Shown here one piece after another: positions 2,287 through 40,388 of a DNA stretch of 40,388 bases (the stretch's first letter is position 1; every line of letters starts with the position of its first letter). A model generated the notes under the pieces. It worked only from the letters and a program-made list of their open reading frames with translations, had not been told where the DNA came from and ran no database searches. Source of the DNA: a virus; IMG/VR virus record IMGVR_UViG_3300049783_001949, positions 1 to 40,388 of that record. One strand, 5' to 3'. A program made the translations under genes and the position numbers.

Positions 2287-5200
2287 TTATTTGAAAATAT
2301 CGGTCAGCCAGTTCCCAATCGCTGTCAGCTGCGCAGGGCCTGGGTGGTTGTAGAAGTTCGCGTTACACATACTCTCCGCCGAAAGCCCAGAGAAGCCATT
2401 CGCACCAGCCTCCTCAATAAACTGTGTTGAAATATATGCTGACCCACTTTTCTGTGCTGCTAACCATAAGCGCTGGTTACACTTAGCCCAACTAGTGTCT
2501 GATTCACGCCCGCCTTGAGAATTAATGCGCGGACACCCTATGATTATGGTCTCCATACCGACTGCCTGACACGCATCTGCTATTTGTATCACGTTAGCAG
2601 TAGTTGCCCCAGAGGCTATTTCATTCATACCAAAGGCTATTATCGCTAAATCAGCCCCGCTGCCAGCCAGCGCCGCTAGCCTTAGCGGATTAGTGCCGCC
2701 CTTATCATTCCCTCCGTTATCGTAGTTTCCTGAGTGGGATCCGCCGATAGCATAGTTAAGATAAGTTACATTACAGCCGTGGTTCTCAAAGTGGCTCACC
2801 AAGCTCCAGTTCCAGCCTAGTTTAGTATGTATCTGGCCACCGCCGTCATCAAAATCATAAAGCTCGATACTGTTATAGGTGTCAGCTGGGTAAGCTGCAA
2901 AGTAGTTATCTGGTATATCCCTTGTTACGCCATTGGGCGTGTCATACGGTACCCCGCCAGCCTGTATTGCGGTAATAGAATCTCCAGTAGCTGCAATAGT
3001 GACAGCGGCGCCACTGTGCATCTTGGCAATACTCTTTGGCAACATCCGACGGTTATAATCACGTAAGTTCTGTTGCTCCTGCTCATGGCCCTTGCGCGTG
3101 CCATAGAGCCAGTTACTCAACTGGACGATCTCGGATCGCTGACCAGAAACAAAAGCATGTGCTAGAGGAACTTTTCCACCGGTCAGCGTCGGTAGGTATT
3201 CTTCAGGATCTGTGACTCTGTTTGTGCCCTGCACGACTGAAACCGCTCCTGTGAAAGGCTCAAGTTCAATAAGGTCATAGCGTGCCAGACTGTAGGTATA
3301 ATCAATTGTTACAGCAAAGTTTGGAGTATTAATCAACCCGTAAACCTTACCCCCAACATAGATAACTTCATAATCCACACCCTCAGTCAGCACTTGAGAA
3401 TCAGAGACACGGGTTACTACAACATTGTCGATGTAACGATAAGCCAGCTGCTTGTTTACATTAATCAGATTGCGAGGCTGAATATCATATTGCAGGTTCG
3501 CACTCTCAGAATTCGATCCAGACGAAGGAGCCGCTAGTAAGACATCCTGCTCCGGCACAGTAACTTGACCGATGCCGGAAGCGTAGTATGTTGTCTCCGG
3601 AACAGTAACGGTTAGCACACTGGATACAGGGAAAATATCTGGATCAGCGTGACTACGTTGCAATACTTTTGCACTGCCCTGAGCGGTGTTAGCAACGTAT
3701 CGCTCTGCATACACTTCGTACGCGATTGCCGAAAGGTTGCCAACCGCAAAATAACTAGAGCCACCATTTGATGTATAGTAGCCGCGCGCCCAATACGGCG
3801 TCTCAGGCAAAGTTTTGTCTGACTGACCTATACCTAGAAGGCCGTCCGTAGCTTCGACTTTGAGGAAATAGACATATTCCGGCGTCAATGTGCCAGCAGT
3901 GCTAATATCGAATAGCACTTTCTTTATGTCTGGCTCAGTTAATCCCAAATCGGCGGGAGTGTACGATGTCTGTATAAGGTACTCGTCGTTTGTACCAGCG
4001 CCGGGAGTGGCCTCGGGGTCTGAAAACGGGCGGCGGATAAACTCGAATTTAATGCTTGTATTGCTAGCTCCGTCTTGTAGCCATATTGCCGCGGTAGTAG
4101 CCTCGAACACATTTACCGGCCGGAAGCCCACAGCCCAACCATAGAAATCCGCACTTGTCGTATTCCAATACGACCCAGTAAACGTGCGGAATAGTCTTAT
4201 ATACTCCTCAACAGTGAATGCCTCAAGCAAGCCGTCCAAAATCTCTTTGGTCACTGAGGGAGCGTAGCCTACGCAATCGGCTTTAACGATTTTTGTACTG
4301 CCGGGACTCACATACCCCCACCCAGTACCTCCGGACGCGATAAAAACTCCTCGCTGGGTGTCAGTGTAGCTATCATTTTCCGCCCTCCATATACCAAGGC
4401 CAGACTGTTGCTCCGATGCGTCCAGCCCCTCTACTGTAAACAAGTAGCGTTTACTAGAATCAACAATAAATCCAACAGGGAAATCCACTACTGTAGTTGC
4501 ATCATTCAATGCTACCGGAATAATTTCGTCGCGGATTTTTTTCCAGTTAAAAATCCCAGCAACAGAAAAAGTCGGGAAGTCCTCATAAATTGAATACCGC
4601 ACTTTTACAGTCTCGGGAGTTTGATAGTTATTGAGGCCGAACTGTATAGTGTGCACGTACGCGTCGTCGGTGAAGTCCTTGAACACACCCCACGCATCGA
4701 AGTCCGTTGCCTTCCACGTAAACTCAGTTTCCACTAACCCGCTAAAAGCATCCTCTGCTATGGGCAACTTCTGATTTCCGGCACTCGTAACAAGCGAGGA
4801 AAGTATACTCTTGTGGATCTCTGTCTCATCCTGCAACGTATCCGCTACAACAGCGATGCAATCAATAGCAATACCAGAATTGGTTGAATCCAGCGGCACC
4901 CAATTACCTGCAATGTTGATGTAATAACCCTGCAGTTCCTGGGCTGACGCGTCAGTAGTCGAATTAGACATACAGCCAAGCGTAACTTTTACGCCACTGT
5001 TAAGTAGCGTAATTTCTGCTAAGTACCATTTATCTGGGGAAACATCTAAATCGACGTCAAACAGCATGTGAATTCTTTTCGCTGTGCCGTCGGGAGACGC
5101 CGGTAAGCTCCCCTTATCAATGGTTGTAATTAATTTGTCACCTTCAGCCACGTCAGGCACACCGTGGTAGGTGCTGGTCTTCAGACGCGAAAAGAGCTGT

Positions 5201-6312
5201 AATCTAAGCGTGTCACCGTTGTCCAAACCATCAAGCCAAAAAGACAATTTATCAACGTGGCTGTAGTCTGAATACTCAAAGCCTGCAACATAGCCTTTGA
5301 AGCCCGTGCTGGAAGGCCAACCGTTTTTCCTTGGCAATACCCCCTCGAAGGTTTTGACTTCCAAACTTTTCTTACTTAAAGCATAGGCGTTAGACGCATT
5401 AAGTTTTCCGCCTAAATTAAATGAGTCTTGGATCAATGCAGCTGCCGCAACTGTGCGACCAGTAAAAGTGGCGACAGGGCCATCTTCTACAAGCCAGATA
5501 TCATAGACACCATTAGCAGACGTGCTGGGTATACCGAAAAATCCGTCGACATCTCTGTTAGGCGCGCTAGTCAATGAAACTATTGCCCCCGAAGTACCTG
5601 CAACGGAGTCGATATCGGCACTGAGTGCTCCAGTATAGTTCTTACCTGAAGATTGGACATAAGCCTCGGTGAGCACGTTGCCCGAAATGACAACCACCAG
5701 TTTCCCATTCGAGCCTGTCGAGCCAATTACTGGTACTGTGTACTGCCCATCTATACCGCCAGATCCCGAAGCCATTATCGCTACAGTCTTAACACCATTA
5801 CTAAGTGCATCTGCTGTCGATTGATAAATCTCTCGAGCATCTATAGAGATACTCGCCGCCGTTTCAGCCCGTTCCGCCTCAGCACTAATAAACGCTGACT
5901 CCGCAACAGAAAGCGTTAATGACAAAGACCAATCAGCGAAGGTACCAGCCCCAGCCGACTTATCAGCCGAGATAACAAGCTCGCCGGTTTCCACGTCGTA
6001 GCTGCTCACTTGGCCAACAATGTAGTTTATTGGTGATGCTGTGCTCGCCGCTATCACGAACTGGCCAGCGGCAAATGTAAGGTCTGGCTGTACGATGAAT
6101 GTTTTAGGCCCACTCGTATCGACGGTGTTTTCTGTTGTCGAAGTACTTGCAAAGCCGAAGTTTTGAAATAGGTTTAGGATCTCTGCCCGCAAGCCGTTCA
6201 TCCCGCTACCGAAGCCGGGCAGCTCTTGCATGAAGGTTTCCATGCGTTCATCGAAGTTTTCGAGATCTTGTTTGGATGGCAGTGGGGTCGTTAATTCAGG
6301 GACTTCAGGCAT
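2287..6312 (-). CDS. Tail fibre/spike with C-terminal SGNH hydrolase domain
   Basis: A 1341-residue protein, the last gene of the tail operon. The N-terminal about 160 residues include an Ala/Glu-rich helical stretch typical of fibre shafts near the tail. The middle is beta-rich with no enzyme motif that I recognise. From about residue 1108 there is an SGNH/GDSL esterase-like domain: ATGDSIT (Ser1112), AIGGS (Gly1190), FGMNE (Asn1230) and NHPG (His1323). The usual Asp three residues before the His is not present, so the triad may be a dyad. Such domains deacetylate or cleave surface glycans, which fits receptor recognition. The start overlaps the previous gene by 8 bp. Confidence 0.88.
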   Translation of the reverse strand: MPEVPELTTPLPSKQDLENFDERMETFMQELPGFGSGMNGLRAEILNLFQNFGFASTSTTENTVDTSGPKTFIVQPDLTFAAGQFVIAASTASPINYIVGQVSSYDVETGELVISADKSAGAGTFADWSLSLTLSVAESAFISAEAERAETAASISIDAREIYQSTADALSNGVKTVAIMASGSGGIDGQYTVPVIGSTGSNGKLVVVISGNVLTEAYVQSSGKNYTGALSADIDSVAGTSGAIVSLTSAPNRDVDGFFGIPSTSANGVYDIWLVEDGPVATFTGRTVAAAALIQDSFNLGGKLNASNAYALSKKSLEVKTFEGVLPRKNGWPSSTGFKGYVAGFEYSDYSHVDKLSFWLDGLDNGDTLRLQLFSRLKTSTYHGVPDVAEGDKLITTIDKGSLPASPDGTAKRIHMLFDVDLDVSPDKWYLAEITLLNSGVKVTLGCMSNSTTDASAQELQGYYINIAGNWVPLDSTNSGIAIDCIAVVADTLQDETEIHKSILSSLVTSAGNQKLPIAEDAFSGLVETEFTWKATDFDAWGVFKDFTDDAYVHTIQFGLNNYQTPETVKVRYSIYEDFPTFSVAGIFNWKKIRDEIIPVALNDATTVVDFPVGFIVDSSKRYLFTVEGLDASEQQSGLGIWRAENDSYTDTQRGVFIASGGTGWGYVSPGSTKIVKADCVGYAPSVTKEILDGLLEAFTVEEYIRLFRTFTGSYWNTTSADFYGWAVGFRPVNVFEATTAAIWLQDGASNTSIKFEFIRRPFSDPEATPGAGTNDEYLIQTSYTPADLGLTEPDIKKVLFDISTAGTLTPEYVYFLKVEATDGLLGIGQSDKTLPETPYWARGYYTSNGGSSYFAVGNLSAIAYEVYAERYVANTAQGSAKVLQRSHADPDIFPVSSVLTVTVPETTYYASGIGQVTVPEQDVLLAAPSSGSNSESANLQYDIQPRNLINVNKQLAYRYIDNVVVTRVSDSQVLTEGVDYEVIYVGGKVYGLINTPNFAVTIDYTYSLARYDLIELEPFTGAVSVVQGTNRVTDPEEYLPTLTGGKVPLAHAFVSGQRSEIVQLSNWLYGTRKGHEQEQQNLRDYNRRMLPKSIAKMHSGAAVTIAATGDSITAIQAGGVPYDTPNGVTRDIPDNYFAAYPADTYNSIELYDFDDGGGQIHTKLGWNWSLVSHFENHGCNVTYLNYAIGGSHSGNYDNGGNDKGGTNPLRLAALAGSGADLAIIAFGMNEIASGATTANVIQIADACQAVGMETIIIGCPRINSQGGRESDTSWAKCNQRLWLAAQKSGSAYISTQFIEEAGANGFSGLSAESMCNANFYNHPGPAQLTAIGNWLTDIFK

Positions 6313-7216
6313 CGTTCATACTCTCTATATTAAGTACTGCTTGTGAATATTTACCGCGCTTAATGGTTGTGTAAAATCCGTCGTAGTAACCAAACATGGT
6401 CATGGTTTCAAACAAGCCTTTGGCACCAATCCATAGCGCTGGGGTTTGACGGAATCTAGCAGCTTTCATGAAGACGGAATCAAAGATGGCGTTGTCGATC
6501 ATTACCGTAACTTCCATGCGACGACGGAAACCGCGCTTTACAAAATTGATGACGCCGAATTGATTTTCCTGACGCTCACCCAGATCGATTAGCCGGATCT
6601 GCACATCGTATTGAGCAAAGCCGAATGTGGATTTTCGGCCCATAACAAAGTAGCCCCAGCTCACAGCGCCACCGTTTACTGTGATCGTATAAGTTGAGCC
6701 AACTACTGGCGGGATGTCGGTGGCTATGACTTGGGTTTCAAAGAGATTTTCACCGAAGAACCAATCGTAAAAGCCGGTGACTATGGCGCGGTTTTTAAGC
6801 TCGAGCGTTTCGTCATAGTAGGTGCCGTAGCCAGAGCTGGAAGCCTGGATTCTTACCGACGTCGCGTAGAGTTCAGTGAGTGCGATGGTGTCGATACTGT
6901 CTCCAGTAACGACAAAGCTTATCGGGCCAAGTCCGGTAACCGAGGTGTTGCCAGCGTCGTCAAACGCGGCCCAGCGATTCGTCGGCCCAACTTCTAGCCA
7001 GGCAACGCCCAACGTCTCGATGGGATTATTCTCAAAATTAGCGTCAATGACCGATTCGTAAATTTTATGTTGCGCGGCAATGATGACCCTTTGTTTTGCT
7101 GCGTAGGTTTCTTCTACATCCCATTCAGGGTGATCGGTTTCGGGGATATCGTGCGACACCAATTTGGCATCAGTGATTTTTACGCGCTCAACAACGGTAA
7201 ACGGGAGCTGACTCAT
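6305..7216 (-). CDS. Probable tail-tip protein, carbohydrate-binding-like N-terminus
   Basis: A 303-residue protein directly after the tape measure, its ATG overlapping the tape-measure stop (ATGA). Residues about 30-75 (WDVEETYAAKQRVI...YESVIDANFENNP...WLEVGP) resemble short aromatic carbohydrate-binding modules found on phage tails. The remainder is beta-rich with no recognised family. By position it would fill the distal-tail/tip role between tube and fibre. Lambda-type tips need several genes (M, L, K, I, J); none of these is seen here. Function is inferred from position and composition. Confidence 0.65.
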   Translation of the reverse strand: MSQLPFTVVERVKITDAKLVSHDIPETDHPEWDVEETYAAKQRVIIAAQHKIYESVIDANFENNPIETLGVAWLEVGPTNRWAAFDDAGNTSVTGLGPISFVVTGDSIDTIALTELYATSVRIQASSSGYGTYYDETLELKNRAIVTGFYDWFFGENLFETQVIATDIPPVVGSTYTITVNGGAVSWGYFVMGRKSTFGFAQYDVQIRLIDLGERQENQFGVINFVKRGFRRRMEVTVMIDNAIFDSVFMKAARFRQTPALWIGAKGLFETMTMFGYYDGFYTTIKRGKYSQAVLNIESMNDA

Positions 7217-19041: not shown

Positions 19042-20334
19042 CTAATTCCCACCACGCAACACCTCACCTTTTTTAATATCTGCTTTACGGGTACCGTCAC
19101 GCACTGGGTGATAGCTCACCACAAACAATTCGCCAGGCTGCGTTCGCTTCAACACCAACCTAAACAACTGATTGCCTTCGGTATGGTAAAACGTCAAATT
19201 GCGCGCAGTCTGAATAATGTCTGTCGCGTTGTTAATGGCGCTCTGAATCTGACGGTAACTTGCCAAGCTTACCGGCTGGCCAGCGCGATTAATGAGCTGC
19301 TTGGCTAGCGTGTCCTGGCTCAACAATACCTGGTTCGTTTGCACTGCCATCACCGCTTGCAGGTTGGGAGCAAGCGAGGCCACCGGCATCCACTCTTTAG
19401 ACAGCAGCGGCTTAACCTCATCAAGCAGCACCGCATTACTTAGACCAGGGCGCTGCGTTGTTGTTTGCGTTACCGCCTTGTCGATACGGCGATAAAAGTC
19501 TTCAAACGGTGGGCCGCTTACTGCGCCTTCAATATATTGTTTAGCGGTCGCGTAAGGGTAGTTATCTAAGTCTGGCTGCCAATGCGCTGCGCCGGGGTTA
19601 TAGCTCCATCCCGCGCCTGGCTTAAAAGTCTCTCCACCACCCAGGTCGTAGCCTGTCACTGGCTGTACTTCGCCGGTGCGCTTACTTACCAGCTCCATCG
19701 ACTCGCGCAATTTACCGTCAGATGCTTCAACAGAGAGTCCTTTTTGCTTCACTTGTTTTTCAGTAAGCGCTCGCACGCGGCAACGGCAACCCCAGTCATT
19801 GGGCGGGTACATACTTTGCCAGATCGGATCATCCCAGCGGAATACACGCTTGTGCATTGCCCGGTGCTTGTCGCGGGTCGCGGCATCGTCAATCGCTATG
19901 TACTGCCAGTACGGCCGCTCACTCGCATTCTCATCCATGCCCTTCCAGCGGCCAGCCATATACGACGTTTGCAGGTTGGTGCCGTAAATGGTTTTTAATC
20001 GACGGACGCTGCCAAGCTGTACCTGCTCGGCCACGCCTTGCGAGTCCACTACGATCTGCTTGCCCCACCAGCCCTTATTGCGCAGGGTAGGTTCAAGGTC
20101 TTTTTTGAAATCGGCAAAGATGGTGCCATTGGCAATAGCACCGTCGACCGCGCCGCGAATATCCTGCAGCACATCTAGCCGCGCTACCTTGGCGACGGTA
20201 AATGCCTTGGCGTTTGCCTCTTGGTATGTGTCATACCAGTTCCACGATATGCGATGGCCCTTGTTGCGGAAGTACTCCACGGCTTTGGCGGGGGCTAAAG
20301 TGAAGGCGTAGCCTAGGTCTACTGGTTCAGGCAT
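19042..20334 (-). CDS. MuF-like head protein with probable C-terminal BECR nuclease domain
   Basis: A 430-residue protein. Residues 1-210 are the Mu F/SPP1 gp7 minor head domain, with YWQYIAIDDAATRDKHRAMHKRVF and the signature PPNDWGCRCRV at 177-187. Residues about 335-430 resemble the phage BECR nuclease domain found at the end of many MuF proteins: LLSQDTLAKQLI, a helical stretch, then LFRLVLKRTQPGELFVVSYHPVR, with Lys396 and Ser407 as candidate active residues. The start ATG 20334 has no Shine-Dalgarno and lies one base after the stop of the preceding membrane-protein gene, so translation is probably coupled. Injection with the DNA has been proposed for such toxins; activity here is untested. 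Confidence 0.88.
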   Translation of the reverse strand: MPEPVDLGYAFTLAPAKAVEYFRNKGHRISWNWYDTYQEANAKAFTVAKVARLDVLQDIRGAVDGAIANGTIFADFKKDLEPTLRNKGWWGKQIVVDSQGVAEQVQLGSVRRLKTIYGTNLQTSYMAGRWKGMDENASERPYWQYIAIDDAATRDKHRAMHKRVFRWDDPIWQSMYPPNDWGCRCRVRALTEKQVKQKGLSVEASDGKLRESMELVSKRTGEVQPVTGYDLGGGETFKPGAGWSYNPGAAHWQPDLDNYPYATAKQYIEGAVSGPPFEDFYRRIDKAVTQTTTQRPGLSNAVLLDEVKPLLSKEWMPVASLAPNLQAVMAVQTNQVLLSQDTLAKQLINRAGQPVSLASYRQIQSAINNATDIIQTARNLTFYHTEGNQLFRLVLKRTQPGELFVVSYHPVRDGTRKADIKKGEVLRGGN

Positions 20335-33348: not shown

Positions 33349-33376
33349 CGGACAGTCAGTTGCTGCTGACTGTCCG
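33349..33376 (-). other. 11-bp perfect hairpin over the transposase stop codon
   Basis: CGGACAGTCAG and CTGACTGTCCG (33349-33359, 33366-33376) form an 11-bp stem with a 6-base loop. The transposase TGA (33358-33356) is inside it. There is no U run, so it is not a normal terminator. It might control the A:B ratio or act as an RNA-processing/stability site. Confidence 0.7.
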
Positions 33377-35485
33377 TTCTAGCCTTTCTTGCCAGTCCTC
33401 CATAAATTTTTGGTTAGTGAATTCAGGGTTTTCTTCGTTCTTCGCCCACCATTTGGCGTCGATCTGAGAAAGTGTTTCGCCTTGTTCCACAGCCTTACCT
33501 ACTTTTAACCAGCGCTGGTACGCGGTGCTTTCAGGCTGTGGTTCTTGGATTTCAAATAGCGCTTCAACGTCGGCCATAGAAGCCTCGGCTTGCTTAGTCC
33601 AATATTCGTCGGGCGATTTGGTGTCTGGCATTTCTATGGAGGCGCGAGCGGGACGTACCACTTTGCTGGCAACAGGTGCTGGCAACTCTGGGCGCGGTAA
33701 GCGCTGAGATACATCTGCCAGATCCATGCGCATTTCGGCTTTCGCTGCTTCCTTGGTGGCCTTAATGAACTTCTTGCGCTCACGGCTGTAGATGCGGCTA
33801 CCGTCGCTGTCACCAAAGCCTTTGGCTTCTAGGCAGTCTGCGGTGGTAATAAAGCGCCCATCGAGTGTGTAGGCGTGAACCTGCTCGTGCAGGTGGTCGG
33901 GATCAAAGCGCACCACAATCTTGATGCCACGATCGCCGTATTCCAGAAGATCTTGTGCAAAGTAACGGTTGCGGCCGTCACGGCCTTGGCCCGTGCGCGC
34001 ACCGGCCTCTAAAGTAAAGCAGCCGGTTTTATCGACACGGATCGACTCTGCAGTAAGTAGCCACAACCGGCGCTGGGCTTCGGTTGCCTTGCGGATTGGT
34101 GCTACGGCATACGATTCGTTAAACACCTGATCAAAGCTCAGCGTACCGCCTGCCATTTGGGTGCGGCGTTTTTCGCGGGCATTCCAGTGAATGATTTCTT
34201 CGTTTAGTACCCGCACAAAGTCTTCTAACGGTACCGCTTTGGATGCGTAGTTCTCTGGCTTGGCGGTAACATTTTTGCCGGTATAGGCACCGGCAAAGTC
34301 TGGGTGCTGATCAACGTAGTCACCCAAGCCACCGACACCAAAAGCGCGCTCTATAGGTTTAGCTTGGCCGCGACCTTTCGCTTGGGTACCGGCCTTATCC
34401 ACGCTAGTCCAATGCACCTGCACACCCAGCATAGGGAAGATGCCCAGCGGGTCATCTTCCTTAACTTTAAAGCGGTACCGGTTAGGTACGCCGCCAGTCA
34501 TCCACTTATTCGCAGCTGCCCTGGTGTTATCGATGGTGGCGTGTGAAGGAATACCAAACTGCTCAACCAGATCGCCAAAGCTCAGACGTATCGAGTCGGT
34601 GTTCTCTGTAAGGTCTACCCGATAGGCGAGTAATTTGCGCGAATAGATGTCTTGCCAAAACCACGTTTTAGGGCGATCTACGGTGCCGTCGGGCCACTTA
34701 ACAAACACGTTGTGCTGGTAGCCATCACCATTGATCCATTCCACCGCGTGCATATTGTGCACGGTGCGTTCAACAGAGGGGAAACGGCCAGATAAAGCAT
34801 GCTCACCTTCGCGACATAAAATGCGGATAGTCAGCGGGATGCGTTCAATAGACCAACGATTAAAGGTGCGAACTGCTGGGATTTGCCAGCCATGCGCGGC
34901 AGCCGCACGCTTCAGGCGCTCGTAACAACTGGCGATTGATGGCTGTTCATTGCGAAGATAATCGGCTTTGAAAAAGTCCCATGCTTCAGGTGCGCACTCT
35001 GCACTGCGCTTAGGTTTGCCCTCATGTTGGGGGAGCAGGTGCGCAAGCCAGTTGCTGCGCTCTATGCCTTTTACCAGCTCGACCCACTTGTAAATGGTGG
35101 CGCGGTTTGCGGCAAACTCTGCGGCGGCTTTATCGGTGGCGGCAGATTTGCCCGTGCCGCTAAAGATGAGCTTCTCGCGAAATAACAACGCCTCTAATCG
35201 ACGCTTAGCCTCAGCCTTGGCATTCGCGCCAGCGCGCTCATAGACCTTCCATGCAGTGTCAGCGATGTCTTGCTTTTGGTCAGCAGCGTGACGAGCCTCG
35301 GCTAGGATAAGCGGTTGCTGGATGTCTTTGGGGAGGTCGGCTAATGAATAGACCTGACGTGTTCCACCCACAACGGTCTCTGTCGTATTAGGCCACGCCT
35401 CTTTGTTAGCGCGGCGGCTAATCGTCGATTGATTAAGCCCAGTAGCGCCAACAATTTCCCTAACTGAAAACTGCCGCTCACTCAT
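33356..35485 (-). CDS. MuA-like DDE transposase
   Basis: A 709-residue transposase. Residues 1-60 are a MuA-type winged helix (VREIVGATGLNQSTISRRANKEAWP). The catalytic core has Asp254 (INGDGYQ), Asp319 (TIDNTRAA) and Glu379 (KPIERAFG), close to MuA D269/D336/E392 spacing. The C-terminal domain is basic and helical and contacts MuB and other subunits in Mu. It cuts the TG/CA ends and joins them with 5-bp staggers, matching the duplication seen. Start ATG 35485 after AGGGG. Confidence 0.97.
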   Translation of the reverse strand: MSERQFSVREIVGATGLNQSTISRRANKEAWPNTTETVVGGTRQVYSLADLPKDIQQPLILAEARHAADQKQDIADTAWKVYERAGANAKAEAKRRLEALLFREKLIFSGTGKSAATDKAAAEFAANRATIYKWVELVKGIERSNWLAHLLPQHEGKPKRSAECAPEAWDFFKADYLRNEQPSIASCYERLKRAAAAHGWQIPAVRTFNRWSIERIPLTIRILCREGEHALSGRFPSVERTVHNMHAVEWINGDGYQHNVFVKWPDGTVDRPKTWFWQDIYSRKLLAYRVDLTENTDSIRLSFGDLVEQFGIPSHATIDNTRAAANKWMTGGVPNRYRFKVKEDDPLGIFPMLGVQVHWTSVDKAGTQAKGRGQAKPIERAFGVGGLGDYVDQHPDFAGAYTGKNVTAKPENYASKAVPLEDFVRVLNEEIIHWNAREKRRTQMAGGTLSFDQVFNESYAVAPIRKATEAQRRLWLLTAESIRVDKTGCFTLEAGARTGQGRDGRNRYFAQDLLEYGDRGIKIVVRFDPDHLHEQVHAYTLDGRFITTADCLEAKGFGDSDGSRIYSRERKKFIKATKEAAKAEMRMDLADVSQRLPRPELPAPVASKVVRPARASIEMPDTKSPDEYWTKQAEASMADVEALFEIQEPQPESTAYQRWLKVGKAVEQGETLSQIDAKWWAKNEENPEFTNQKFMEDWQERLERTVSSN

Positions 35486-35507
35486 AGCGCGCCCCTAGTA
35501 AAATGGC

Positions 35508-35571
35508 GGGAACCCAGATCCCTGCTAAACTGGTTGTCGCCAAACAAACCGAACCAACAAGGAGGGTTCCC
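35508..35571 (+). promoter_or_regulatory. Inverted repeat covering the ribosome-binding site of the plus-strand gene
   Basis: GGGAACCC (35508-35515) is complementary to GGGTTCCC (35564-35571). The second arm overlaps the GGAGGG Shine-Dalgarno of the plus-strand gene. A transcript starting upstream could hide its own start; one starting between the arms could not. Confidence 0.5.
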
Positions 35572-35572
35572 A

Positions 35573-36058
35573 ATGAAAAAAATGGATCTAATAAACCAAT
35601 ATTTTGAAAGCGTTCTCGGCCCAGTCGATAAGAGGCGTACTAGGCAGCTATCCCCAATGGAATTCATTGAAGCCTTGTGGCCGTTGAATGACATTTTCAA
35701 GCCGCACATCGAGCAAATAGCAACCGTGCGATACAGGCCAAGATTTGAAGCACAAGCGAACGAAGCCATTGAACGCTTTGTCGCAATTCCGAAAATGGAG
35801 ACTTGGGCGAATTTATCGCCAGGCGTTTGGCGAGTACTCTTAGAGAGACATCGACAAATGATTGATACTGCTGTTGCAAATGACGGGGCTGGAAACATCA
35901 ATTTTGCCCCCATCCCAGATTCGCTACCCGATGACTGCTTGCTACCAGCCCTAATGCTTCTATGGCTTCACTCAATGGAGCTGCCGTTTCCAGTAAAAGA
36001 TCGAACTGCTGGCGAATTTCCTGACGGAGATCCTCCGGCATCGATGCGGCGACACTGA
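35573..36058 (+). CDS. Unrecognised plus-strand gene in the early region
   Basis: A 161-residue protein (MKKMDLINQYFESVLGPVDKRRTR...FIEALWPLNDIFKPHIEQIATVRYRPRFEAQANE) with helical, slightly basic character and a Pro/Asp-rich C-terminus. Start ATG 35573 follows AAGGAGGG. It runs against the transposase operon and overlaps the minus-strand small gene at 35898-36107 by 161 bp. I recognise no domain. An independently expressed lysogenic gene is a reasonable guess from its orientation (the same as the repressor). Confidence 0.68.
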   Translation: MKKMDLINQYFESVLGPVDKRRTRQLSPMEFIEALWPLNDIFKPHIEQIATVRYRPRFEAQANEAIERFVAIPKMETWANLSPGVWRVLLERHRQMIDTAVANDGAGNINFAPIPDSLPDDCLLPALMLLWLHSMELPFPVKDRTAGEFPDGDPPASMRRH

Positions 36059-36107
36059 ATGCCTTCTTCTGGCTCGCCTCGAATATGATGGCGAAGGGAC
36101 AGCTCAT
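35898..36107 (-). CDS. Small early protein overlapping the plus-strand gene
   Basis: A 69-residue protein (MPEDLRQEIRQQFDLLLETAAPLSEAIEALGL from about residue 23) with helical character. ATG 36107 overlaps the stop of the preceding gene (ATGA), as elsewhere in this operon. It is antisense to the last about 53 codons of the plus-strand gene. Either may be the true gene; coupling and composition support this one too. Confidence 0.55.
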   Translation of the reverse strand: MSCPFAIIFEASQKKAFSVAASMPEDLRQEIRQQFDLLLETAAPLSEAIEALGLVASSHRVANLGWGQN

Positions 36108-36544
36108 TCCATCACCCCCATCTGTTTCTTCAATTCCTTAATCTTCCGGGCGGCTTCTTCCTTTAGGCGCTCCAGCTTTCCCAGCTCTGCATTCAATGCA
36201 TCGCGGCCAATCAACAGCCTTCCGCCGCGCACTCCAGCGAGCCAATTGGTAATAAGGTGGCTGTTACAGGCTTCTTCCAGCGCAGGCACAACCCAAAGCG
36301 GTAAATTGAACTCGTCACGCCCCTCAGAGCTGTAAGCGTCCAACATGTATTTAGAGACTTCTTTACCCGTCAGGCGGGAACAGGCAGCGGCAATGTCATA
36401 GCGGTCACCTTCGGCACTCTTCAACATCACCCCAACCAAACCAGCTACCGTTGCGCGGTAATTAAGACCTGCGGGAATGGCAGCTGCAGGTTGCGGAACC
36501 TCAAACAAGTCGAGGGTTTGGGTGTCTTTAGCTCGGCGACTCAT
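36104..36544 (-). CDS. Hypothetical early protein before the transposase
   Basis: A 146-residue protein with helical N-terminal part (GLNYRATVAGLVGVMLKSAEGDRYDIAAACSRLTGKEVSKYMLDAYSSEGRDEFNLPLWVVPALEEAC) and a coiled-coil C-terminus (LNAELGKLERLKEEAARKIKELKK). Relatives occur next to ner in transposable siphoviruses, as far as I recall. Function unknown. Confidence 0.75.
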   Translation of the reverse strand: MSRRAKDTQTLDLFEVPQPAAAIPAGLNYRATVAGLVGVMLKSAEGDRYDIAAACSRLTGKEVSKYMLDAYSSEGRDEFNLPLWVVPALEEACNSHLITNWLAGVRGGRLLIGRDALNAELGKLERLKEEAARKIKELKKQMGVME

Positions 36545-36546
36545 GT

Positions 36547-36897
36547 CTACGCCACCTGTTCATTATGGACATTGCGATACCCGCAACGGGTGTTATCATG
36601 AACACCATTGGAAACAGACTTTTTTGGGCGCCCCATTCGGTAAATCGGCAGGCCGTCTTTGTCATACCGTTCTGGAAAAAGTTGGCTTGGCTCAAGCTCT
36701 AAAAAATCAGCAAGCACTCGCTCCATTCGGGGGTAGGTTTTATTGAACGCTGAGTAAAGACAGGCGCGGCTCACGCCCGCATCACTGGCAACTTTAGCCA
36801 GCGATTGCCCGCGCATTTGAACCTGATACTTGATCCAAGCACGGCGCTTTACCGGGTCACGGAGAAGCTCTTTATTTCTGTTATCTAATTTAGTCAT
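36547..36897 (-). CDS. ner: Ner-like early transcription regulator
   Basis: A 116-residue protein with the Ner/Nlp helix-turn-helix: AWIKYQVQMRGQSLAKVASDAGV, then SRACLYSAFNKTYPRMERVLADFLELEPSQLFPERY. Mu Ner turns down both early and repressor promoters. The tail beyond residue about 75 is longer than Mu Ner. I start it at ATG 36897: the promoter at 36934-36906 should start transcription near 36899, so a start at 36909 would be upstream of the RNA. Confidence 0.9.
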   Translation of the reverse strand: MTKLDNRNKELLRDPVKRRAWIKYQVQMRGQSLAKVASDAGVSRACLYSAFNKTYPRMERVLADFLELEPSQLFPERYDKDGLPIYRMGRPKKSVSNGVHDNTRCGYRNVHNEQVA

Positions 36898-36905
36898 GGG
36901 TATAA

Positions 36906-36934
36906 ACATTACGCCGCATTGTGCGCCATGTCAA
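36906..36934 (-). promoter_or_regulatory. Early promoter Pe
   Basis: The minus strand reads TTGACA (36934-36929), a 17-bp spacer and TAATGT (36911-36906). An operator-like CGCACAATGCG fills the spacer. Transcription would begin near 36899, so ner would be leaderless or nearly so. Confidence 0.75.
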
Positions 36935-36992: not shown

Positions 36993-37039
36993 TTATTTAA
37001 AAACAACAGGTTATGGTTTTTAATATTTGCTAATAGGGC

Positions 37040-37055
37040 TATGCGTTGCCGCATA
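37040..37055. repeat. Inverted repeat in repressor leader
   Basis: TATGCG-TTGC-CGCATA is a 6-bp inverted repeat 20 bp before the repressor ATG. Its half-sites resemble the GC-rich halves of the operators, so it may be a fourth, autoregulatory operator, or a leader hairpin. Confidence 0.5.
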
Positions 37056-37074
37056 CCTTGACGAGAAGAAAGTT

Positions 37075-37761
37075 ATGCACGACCAAATCGCAATAGGCAA
37101 TAGGATAAAAGCTGTCCGCGAACTGCTTGGATATACGCAATCCGGCATATCCGCGCAGTGCGGTAGCAAACTTCGCTCATGGCAAGAATATGAAAAAGGA
37201 GGCCGCAGCCCTGGCAGCCAAGTGATCGCAGGTCTAGTGAGTATCGGCGTTAACGCAAACTGGCTATTGACCGGCGAAGGCGAAATGTTAACGGCAGCTA
37301 ATAACGGCGCTGCTGAACCACTGCTTTCGTATTCAGTTGCAAGCGATGATTACGCTTACGTGCAAAAGCTCGTAGATGTCCACGTTTCGGCTGGAGACGG
37401 CGCAGAACCGAGCGATGGCGACGGAATTGAAGAACTCGCATTTAAGCGTAAATGGCTTGCTATGGAGGGTTTGTCAGCCAAGAACCTGCGTGTGGTGGCG
37501 TGTCGCGGCGACTCAATGGCACCGACAATCCCAGAGGATTCAACGCTTCTGGTCGATATCAGTCAGAATGACTTTGTGCGAGAGGGTGTTTACGTGATCC
37601 GCCTAGATGGACACTTGTTCGCTAAACGCTTACAGCGCGGGCAAGGCGGCTCAATTCATGTCATTAGCGATAATACGCTGTATGATAAAATCATCGTCAC
37701 GCCAGAAAAGCATGACTTCCAAATGATCGGAAAAGCAGTCTGGCTTGGGCACACTATGTAA
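37075..37761 (+). CDS. CI/LexA-type phage repressor (XRE + S24)
   Basis: A 228-residue protein. Residues 5-68 are an XRE helix-turn-helix (NRIKAVRELLGYTQSGISAQCGSKLRSWQEYEKGGRSPGSQVIAGL). Residues about 100-228 are an S24/LexA-type domain with Ser147 (CRGDSMAPT) and Lys184 (FAKRL) 37 residues apart, as in LexA. Ala106-Gly107 is a candidate self-cleavage site, so RecA-linked induction is possible. This is unlike Mu c and like D3112/B3. Start ATG 37075 rather than TTG 37027, because of the leader and promoter. Confidence 0.93.
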   Translation: MHDQIAIGNRIKAVRELLGYTQSGISAQCGSKLRSWQEYEKGGRSPGSQVIAGLVSIGVNANWLLTGEGEMLTAANNGAAEPLLSYSVASDDYAYVQKLVDVHVSAGDGAEPSDGDGIEELAFKRKWLAMEGLSAKNLRVVACRGDSMAPTIPEDSTLLVDISQNDFVREGVYVIRLDGHLFAKRLQRGQGGSIHVISDNTLYDKIIVTPEKHDFQMIGKAVWLGHTM

Positions 37762-37980
37762 ACGATCTTTAATTCCACATTAACCGTATAATATTGCTGT
37801 CGTGATGTAAGTGGCGCACTTTGCTGATTAAGCCAAATTTGTCGAATTTGTCGCGCCACATCAAATTCCTACGTGGCCACATGCTGAGCGTTTCAATGCC
37901 GCGTCATCCGTGACTCTCCCACTAGCTCCAGCCTAATCCCGCTTGTTTCCGGTTTGTCGCGTTCTTAATGGCCCCATACA
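37762..37980. other. Prophage genetic left end with transposase-type sites
   Basis: This 219-bp stretch has no gene. The terminus on the minus strand is TGTATGGGGCC. CGCGACAA-type motifs recur (plus strand TTGTCGCG at 37954-37961 and 37848-37855), with weaker GTCG copies at 37838-37844 and 37797-37803. A tandem AATTTGTCG pair lies at about 37836-37853. Mu has three transposase sites at each end; these are the likely counterparts. Confidence 0.7.
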
Positions 37981-37985
37981 ATCCC
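37981..37985. repeat. Target-site duplication ATCCC, right copy
   Basis: The second copy of the five bases that precede the left terminus at 771-775. It directly follows the terminus ...CCATACA. Confidence 0.93.
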
Positions 37986-39000
37986 GGTCTACAGGTGGGT
38001 ACCCAAATTTAGCCAGCACCAATATTAAGCCAACCTTTAAGCCCGTCTTGATGTCGTCCCGCTGGCTCCAGTCGGTGTATTTCACTTTGTCTTGCACTAC
38101 TTCTTTCACGGCTTTGGCTAGATCGAGGAGCCTGTCTTCTGGGTAGGTGAAGTCGTACTTAACAGCGAGACGAGCCAGGATGTCGTAGAAGGCCTTTTCT
38201 TCGAGGTCGATACCCATGTCTTCGAAAGAACCAATCTCGCGCTTGAGGTCATGGATCATATCCATGATTTCAACGGAGAAGTCTTCCAATACGCCGCTGA
38301 CCAATACATCGTCTTCGCTGCGCTCATTGTAGTTGTCGACCAATGTCCGAAACTTCTTCGAGAAGTCCATGGCTTGCACTTTGTTGATCTTTTTGAAGTC
38401 CTCGATGGCCTTAGCCAAAAGCTGCTGCAGTAGTTTTATCTTAGTGTTGGGCAGTTTGATCTTGTCGATCTTGGCCATGTAGTCGTCATCAAAAATGTCG
38501 ATCGCGCTCTGGGCCCCATCACCCATTTTAAGAATCTCTTCGACGCCGTCTGACTTCAGAGCCTCACTGATCATCTCCCGCACCCGGGCGTTCATTTGCG
38601 CGGTGTCAGGGCCATTGCCCTTGGTGAGTTTAAAGACGATGGAGCGCACCGCCAGATAGAAGTGAATCTGGTCTCGGTCGTTTTGGTTTATGCCGTCAGC
38701 GCCGCAGCAGATGTCGTATGCAGCCTTCATGCGCTTGGCCAGCGCCATAAAGCGTTTCTCAATCTGCTCGGTAGAGAGCGCAAACTCTGCCGCCATGTTC
38801 AGGCAGTTGAGCTGTTCAAGTGGACTGCCGTGGTAGTACAGGCTGGAATCAAACCGATGGAACATCTTGTTGAGCAAGTCGAGGTGGTCTTTGACCACAA
38901 TGATGGACTGGCCAATCTCTTCGATATTCTGCTGGTCGGCCTTGTTGTAATGGGCCAACGCCAAGTTCATCTGCTTTTTGATGCCGATGTAATCCAACAA
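37981..39000 (-). pseudogene. hsdR: hsdR C-terminal part, broken at both ends
   Basis: About 340 residues of a type I restriction R subunit: IIVVKDHLDLLNKMFHRFDSS, LEQLNCLNMAAEF, KAAYDICCG, HFYLAVRSIVFKLTKG and EEKAFYDILARLAVKYDF...YTDWSQRDDIKTGLKVGLILVLAKFGYPPV are the DUF3387/HsdR C-terminal region. The last residues are at 711-775, across the prophage. The helicase and nuclease parts are missing: a TAA stop sits directly before the first codon (39003-39001), and a TonB receptor gene follows. So the gene was truncated at its 5' side in another event and is certainly dead. Confidence 0.93.
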
Positions 39001-39129: not shown

Positions 39130-40290
39130 TTACATAAAGTTATACGCGAAGCTAATACCATAAGTGACCGGTTTAGCCGCATAGCGAACGACGACATCTT
39201 GAGTTACAAATTGGTTGCTCCAGTAATATTCATCGGTCACGTTGCGGCCCCATACCGTTGCGCTCCATACTCCATCTAAAGATTCAACGCCCGCACGTAA
39301 GTCCAAGGTTGTGAAGCTATTGATACGGGTTTTATCTGGGTCGCCAAAGGTTGAGTTTGCTTCGCTGTTATACATCAGATTGGCCCCTACAAAAGCACCT
39401 AGCGTGCTGCTAATTGGCAGACGGTAATCCGCGTCTGCAACAAAATGAAAATCAGGAGTGAACGGCAGCTCAGATCCAGCGAAGTCTCCCTGCTCTCGCA
39501 CACCATTTAAGCCGTCTTCATCTTGTCCTGTGGTGGGATTAACGAATGTGTACCATTCATTAACTTCGGTATCTACATACGTGCCAGAGGCGCGCAACAT
39601 AAGGCCGTCGATGGGCGTATACGTTAGCTCCATCTCAAAACCTTGAATGGTAGATTCTGGTATATTCACTAAGCGATCTAGCTGGTTATACACCGGATCT
39701 TTAACACTCCCGCGCACCTGCTTATCGTTATATTCATAGTAGAAGACGGCTGAGTTTAGCTGCGCTTTACGATCCGCCAGCGTCCATTTAAAACCCGCCT
39801 CTAAGGCTTGCACTGATTCTTGCGTAACTGGCTCAAATTGTGATGTGGTCGATGCTGGCAATATCGGATAGCTGCCCGTTTTGTAACCCTTAGATGCGAG
39901 TGTGTATAGCAACAGGTCATCGTCAACACGGTAATTTAGGCCAAACCGCCAAGACACATTGTCTTCATCTAAGGTGTCTTGATAAGGAGTGCGACTAACA
40001 TCCGCAGTCGCTGCATCCAAGCTCACGCATTCGCCTGGCACGATAACAGTTGTTCCCGGCGCCTGCCCTTTCAAGGCATCAGAAAAGAACGCAAAGGTGG
40101 CGTTTAAACCAGGATCAGTATTATGACTACAAGAGGTAAAATCATTTTTACTTTGTGTGAAACGAACACCCGCAAGCACGGTAAGCTGTTCACTCAGGTC
40201 GTATTCTAAATTAGCGAATATGCCAACATCCTCAATATCTTGAGTAATACTGGTGGTAGATTTCTGGATAAACGGGCCACCGGGGTTTAG
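39130..40290 (-). pseudogene. TonB-dependent receptor, 5' end lost
   Basis: About 386 residues of the C-terminal beta-barrel of a TonB-dependent receptor: VGIFANLEYDLSEQLTVLAGVRFTQ, YTLASKGYKTGSYP, VQALEAGFKWTL, FEMELTYTPIDGLMLRASGTYV and the end GISFAYNFM with an aromatic near the C-terminus. Such receptors import siderophores or glycans at the outer membrane. The plug and signal peptide are missing. The frame runs on at the 5' side into a repeated sequence (40291-40388) that does not look like receptor, so an insertion interrupted it. Part of the gene could lie outside the window. Confidence 0.85.
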
Positions 40291-40388
40291 TGCGTATTTT
40301 TGCCTACTATGAACACCGATTTTCGCCCATCGTGAACACCTAATTTTCTCAACTGTGAACATTGAATTTTGTCGAACCGTGAACACTT
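40291..40388. mobile_element. Probable insertion-sequence end with 23-24-bp repeats
   Basis: GAACAC/GAACAT units recur at 40311, 40334, 40357 and 40381, at 23, 23 and 24 bp. Each is followed by an AT-rich ATTTT-type core. TGCGTATTTTTGCC at 40291 would be the tip. Several copies of a repeat at the end is the organisation of IS21-family ends. The window ends before any transposase gene, so the family is inferred. Confidence 0.5.

Follow-up and report, generated by a model that had tools for sequence, protein, structure and literature searches.

Gene content of the locus

The stretch of DNA analyzed here (the window; 40,388 nucleotides) is an IMG/VR virus record and represents a Mu-like prophage. 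Between the genes for a phrog_2345 regulator and the MuA transposase, it carries a cassette of approximately 600 bases containing a plus-strand gene (hereafter plus) and a smaller gene on the opposite strand (hereafter minus). The features considered in this study are as follows.

19042–20334, minus strand: the window's own gpF minor head protein (PF04233, E 8.2e-24), residues 31–88 of which are related to the minus protein
33356–35485, minus strand: MuA transposase (PF02914, E 5e-96), downstream of the cassette
35500–36097: approximate extent of the cassette, the segment missing in the closest phages
35508–35571, plus strand: 8-bp inverted repeat, GGGAACCC (35508–35515) and GGGTTCCC (35564–35571), flanking the Shine-Dalgarno sequence; not above chance
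35560–35566, plus strand: Shine-Dalgarno sequence AGGAGGG of plus, recognized from the sequence; several relatives have similar ones
35573–36058, plus strand: plus, 161 amino acids, orphan family; proposed lysogen-side effector
35898–36058: dual-coding overlap of 161 nt, in which a minus codon corresponds to plus positions 1', 3, and 2
35898–36107, minus strand: minus, 69 amino acids, homologue of the gpF N-terminal segment; proposed lytic-side antidote
36104–36544, minus strand: phrog_2345 regulator of 146 amino acids (E 2.4e-41), early operon, upstream neighbor of minus
36547–36909, minus strand: Ner-like repressor, early operon
37027–37761, plus strand: CI-like lysogeny repressor, running in the direction opposite to the early operon

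MuB is also encoded on the minus strand, in the same run as the Ner-like gene, the phrog_2345 gene, and MuA. The start codon of minus overlaps the stop codon of the phrog_2345 gene (ATGA at 36104–36107). In the two phages closest to the window by MuA (L004 and L005; 86–87%), the whole cassette is absent and the regulator gene directly abuts MuA; the cassette is therefore accessory. At its left edge (35493–35533), the window has an imperfect direct repeat, CCCTAGTAAAATGG and CCCTGCTAAACTGG, where L004 has a single CCCTGCTAATAGG. This repeat may be a scar of the arrival of the cassette.

Past the repressor, the minus strand of the window carries a fragment with a match to the C-terminal portion of the type I restriction subunit HsdR (37936–39000; PF11867, E 2e-87) and an apparent TonB-dependent receptor fragment (39130–40386). 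Both are probably host sequence bordering the prophage, and the prophage was possibly inserted in or beside hsdR.

The plus gene and its relatives

A previous reading of the window made from the sequence alone (the sequence-only reading) had described plus as an unrecognized protein of 161 residues with a strong start. The start is borne out by ATG at 35573 and the AGGAGGG upstream of it, and a homology search gave relatives in 16 other loci but no name from the libraries. No relative of plus was found in Pfam, PHROGs, NCBIfam, PADLOC, or PDB, none of the toxin-related models in Pfam, NCBIfam, and PADLOC matched it, and searches of plasmids and named phages returned only noise. The AF2 model (pLDDT 81.7) is mostly helical with a disordered C-terminal tail. 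A fold search with this model gave nothing at E ≤ 0.001 and matched no known fold; thus neither sequence nor fold pointed to a function. A sigma-70-like promoter was sought upstream of plus and not found, while the Shine-Dalgarno sequence is good.

Stepwise searches gave the 16 loci, which carry plus whole or as a remnant and belong, all or nearly all, to Mu-like phages or prophages. Twelve of them (L003, L091, L096, L097, L098, L099, L100, L101, L102, L106, L109, and L111) have full-length plus, and four (L002/L087, from Colwellia psychrerythraea ND2E, and L103, L105, and L107) retain only a C-terminal remnant. We aligned the 13 full sequences including that of the window, and also scored the relatives by six-frame HMM. 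The alignment revealed the motifs LWPLN(D/E)xFR, WRVLLERHxQ, and M(K/E)LPFPVxDRS (MKLPFPVADRS in the window). Judged by these sequence comparisons, plus is a real gene of an unnamed family. A profile search of 369 wider gammaproteobacterial genomes returned only two genomes, both known already; since this sample added no new genome, the family is rare. L110 was rejected as a relative because its match was a chance pattern within a terminase-like gene.

It had also been proposed that the Shine-Dalgarno sequence of plus can be hidden by the 8-bp inverted repeat. The repeat is present; however, the hiding is not above chance. Three further perfect inverted repeats of 8–9 bp lie within the same 701 bases (four in total), the folded plus leader had a z of −1.24 against shuffled sequences (24 of 200 shuffles were equally stable), and the relatives showed no consistent pattern. 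Sequestration of the Shine-Dalgarno sequence by this repeat was therefore rejected.

Both frames of the overlap are protein-coding

The overlap between plus and minus is exactly 161 nt, as the sequence-only reading had stated. An open minus frame in the same antisense register lies over the 3' end of plus in all 17 loci, and the minus start lies 22–85 nt past the plus stop wherever a start could be assigned. Taken locus by locus, a minus frame open over such a length is unremarkable (P 0.08–0.65). We therefore kept the plus proteins fixed, shuffled the synonymous codons, and scored the minus-frame similarity across 12 loci. The similarity reached a z of 19.3 in the overlap, compared with 8.5 and 5.2 in the other antisense frames and only 2–3 in the non-overlapping upstream control, which is the fair yardstick for these values because the shuffles ignore relatedness. 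Identity at wobble positions was 0.58 in the overlap against 0.35 expected, and 0.41 against 0.38 upstream. In the reverse test with minus fixed, the plus similarity gave a z of 21.4, and none of 500 shuffles was free of stops. The excesses of plus and of minus both persisted before, within, and after the MKLPFP motif. These results show that each strand of the overlap encodes a protein and that selection acts on both.

A second minus-strand ORF of 143 amino acids (35482–35913), antisense to the N-terminal half of plus, showed almost no excess conservation (z −0.1; z 2.05) and was rejected.

The minus protein is related to the N-terminal segment of gpF

We built a profile from 15 minus proteins without any gpF sequence. 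With this profile, the gpF minor head protein from L103/L108 scored 30 bits, and the gpF encoded in the window was matched weakly. In HHalign against nine gpF N-termini, including those of Mu and D3112, minus residues 3–60 were aligned with gpF residues 31–88 (58 columns) at a probability of 96.3% and an E of 1.5e-9. Four of 10 minus members matched phrog_220, annotated as "minor head protein and DNA pilot" (best E 4e-4), and all 15 members outscored their own shuffles at P ≤ 0.05. The minus match was weak in L003, and the minus start was poor in L098. The PF04233 domain itself was not matched in the minus protein, the homology being confined to the N-terminal segment, and no known toxin or antitoxin model in the scanned libraries matched. 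The AF2 model of minus (pLDDT 79.9) consists of three helices, and its fold search gave nothing at E ≤ 0.001. On the evidence of these alignments, the minus protein is a small stand-alone relative of the helical gpF N-terminal segment (residues 31–88). The homology with gpF also supports, independently of the conservation tests, translation of the minus frame and selection on it. The sequence-only reading had thus overlooked the minus ORF as a conserved partner of recognizable origin.

Distribution of the plus/minus module

A site was assigned to the cassette in all loci but L100. It is located in the early operon in the window, L096, L098, L105, L106, L107, L109, and L111, on the repressor side in L002, L003, L091, L101, L102, L103, and L097 (in the last beside Ner), and once, in L099, in a tail operon. 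In the lytic operons, minus is co-directional with the operon, and its start often overlaps the previous stop (window, L096, L099, L105, and L106). In the repressor-side loci, plus is co-directional with the repressor; in four of them (L091, L101, L102, and L003), minus lies outside the lytic operon and would require its own promoter. The module is thus accessory and moves among Mu-like phages.

Full-length plus was always accompanied by an open minus frame (13 loci, mostly found with a plus query; the L097 contig ends just beyond the plus stop). Conservation of the minus frame alone, which the sequence-only reading had named as an argument against its own interpretation, was found in the four loci where plus is truncated (L002, L103, L105, and L107), and not in the 12 relatives with full plus.

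Several loci show additional features. In L002, a plus-strand ORF of 449 amino acids with an endonuclease-like C-terminus (4632–5981) occupies the place of the plus N-terminus, and the plus remnant and an intact minus remain. L003 has near-identical repeats (TTCTCAxACTCCTTTATCTATTT; 5870–5912 and 6345–6385) on either side of plus, and two small membrane-protein-like ORFs (5008–5427 and 5445–5873) upstream of plus in the same direction. In L099/L112, the cassette lies between tail genes, and the minus start, preceded by the Shine-Dalgarno sequence GGAGG, shares bases with the stop codon of the tail-region gene before it.

Possible roles of plus and minus

By analogy with the Tab/anti-Tab pair described below, we tentatively favor the reading that plus acts on the lysogen side as an effector against rival Mu-like phages and that minus is its antidote on the lytic side. 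The quiescent prophage would make the plus protein, and this protein would block the rivals, probably by acting through gpF on either head assembly or DNA delivery. Once the prophage itself switches to lytic growth, minus would be made and would bind and neutralize plus as a decoy of its target, freeing the phage's own gpF; the minus transcript would also be antisense to the plus mRNA. Given the resemblance of minus to gpF, the simplest model has the gpF of incoming phages as the target of plus and minus as the decoy. A more specific proposal, which we regard as somewhat doubtful, is that the antidote is a decoy of the gpF N-terminal segment encoded antisense within its effector, so that one lytic transcript would supply the antidote and silence the effector, and loss of the antidote would break the effector. 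The suggestion in the sequence-only reading that plus is an exclusion or defense gene is thus retained in part: plus is on an antisense accessory insert in the early operon, its relatives often lie in the repressor-direction cluster, and a defense-antidote pair of the same layout is known (PMC10884400), whereas the regulatory argument from a hidden Shine-Dalgarno sequence did not hold.

Four other explanations were weighed. The minus protein could itself be the weapon, a dominant-negative gpF fragment that poisons head assembly of co-infecting relatives, with plus having a separate lysogen function or inhibiting minus. The gpF homology of minus fits this explanation, as do the virion-assembly blockers present in Mu-like prophages (PMC10884400) and the exclusion obtained with both strands of an antisense pair of phage Fc02 (PMC9936078). 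However, in the window, L096, L098, L099, L105, L106, L109, and L111, minus belongs to an early or tail operon of the phage that carries it and would therefore be made during that phage's own head assembly, and we consider the explanation unlikely. The pair might instead reflect economy of space alone, a structural or regulatory gpF-fragment gene and an unrelated lysogenic-conversion gene sharing DNA without any functional link. Overlapping genes are common in viruses, and the two proteins have no common sequence; nevertheless, the two genes have stayed linked at insertion sites as unrelated as the early operon, the region downstream of the repressor, and the tail operon, which makes the absence of a functional link rather unlikely.

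The one-sided co-occurrence and the tight antisense linkage would also suit a classical toxin-antitoxin system that stabilizes the prophage, in which plus is a growth toxin and the minus protein, together with the antisense RNA, is the antitoxin. This is quite improbable, because no toxin-related model in the scanned libraries matched, a gpF-like antidote is not explained, and, short of a second promoter, lytic control of the antitoxin would deprive the lysogen of protection. That plus alone is real, with the minus ORF arising from its codon usage, would agree with the unremarkable single-locus probabilities, but is extremely improbable in view of the minus-frame z of 19 across 12 loci, the homology of the minus protein with gpF, and the retention of minus where plus is truncated.

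Few convincing cases are known in which both strands of one DNA segment encode proteins under selection, and the function of such pairs is usually unknown (PMC7457138). The case for plus and minus is statistical, extends over 17 loci, and traces one partner to gpF. If the decoy model is true, the targets of prophage-encoded defense would come to include gpF and the stage of head formation or DNA delivery, the arrangement would be a compact means of keeping effector and antidote inseparable, and phages carrying minus alone are predicted to be immune to prophages carrying plus.

Comparison with known systems

The minus protein aligns along its length with residues 31–88 of gpF, a member of the Mu gpF/SPP1 gp7 family of minor head proteins (phrog_220, PF04233). 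It differs from this family in being a stand-alone product of 57–77 amino acids encoded outside the head operon (in the window, in the early operon).

In the transposable Pseudomonas phage Fc02, the lysogen-strand gene of the olg1/gene 10 pair is likewise antisense to an early gene, which follows ner; it is transcribed in the lysogen according to strand-specific RNA-seq, and phage exclusion was demonstrated, with both strands of the pair excluding (PMC9936078). The plus and minus HMMs did not match the Fc02 and B3 loci (L113 and L114), with sub-threshold scores only when the filters were off.

The closest parallel is Tab/anti-Tab of the Pseudomonas phage JBD26. Tab is made by the prophage from the opposite strand and blocks virion assembly of competitors through the tape measure protein, and anti-Tab, the product of a lytic-operon gene, binds and neutralizes Tab (PMC10884400). 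Both systems are convergent pairs in Mu-like prophages with an antisense 3' overlap; one member points in the direction opposite to the lytic operon, and the start of the other overlaps the stop of the operon gene before it. The tab and anti-tab genes (L123, 2378–2834) share 47 nt and have the same relative frame as plus and minus, whose overlap is three times as long. Tab/anti-Tab is situated between the small and large terminase genes, whereas plus/minus lies between the phrog_2345 regulator gene and MuA in the window and at other sites in relatives. The candidate antidote minus resembles gpF, whereas Tab targets the tape measure protein. Comparison of anti-Tab with its target revealed no visible mimicry (best E 0.83); the decoy idea is therefore without precedent in Tab/anti-Tab. 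Homology between the two pairs was likewise not detected, with E above 80 in hmmsearch and a probability of 0.1–0.3% in HHalign. Plus/minus is thus not a member of Tab/anti-Tab and would instead be a variant of the defense/antidote pairs of Mu-like prophages.
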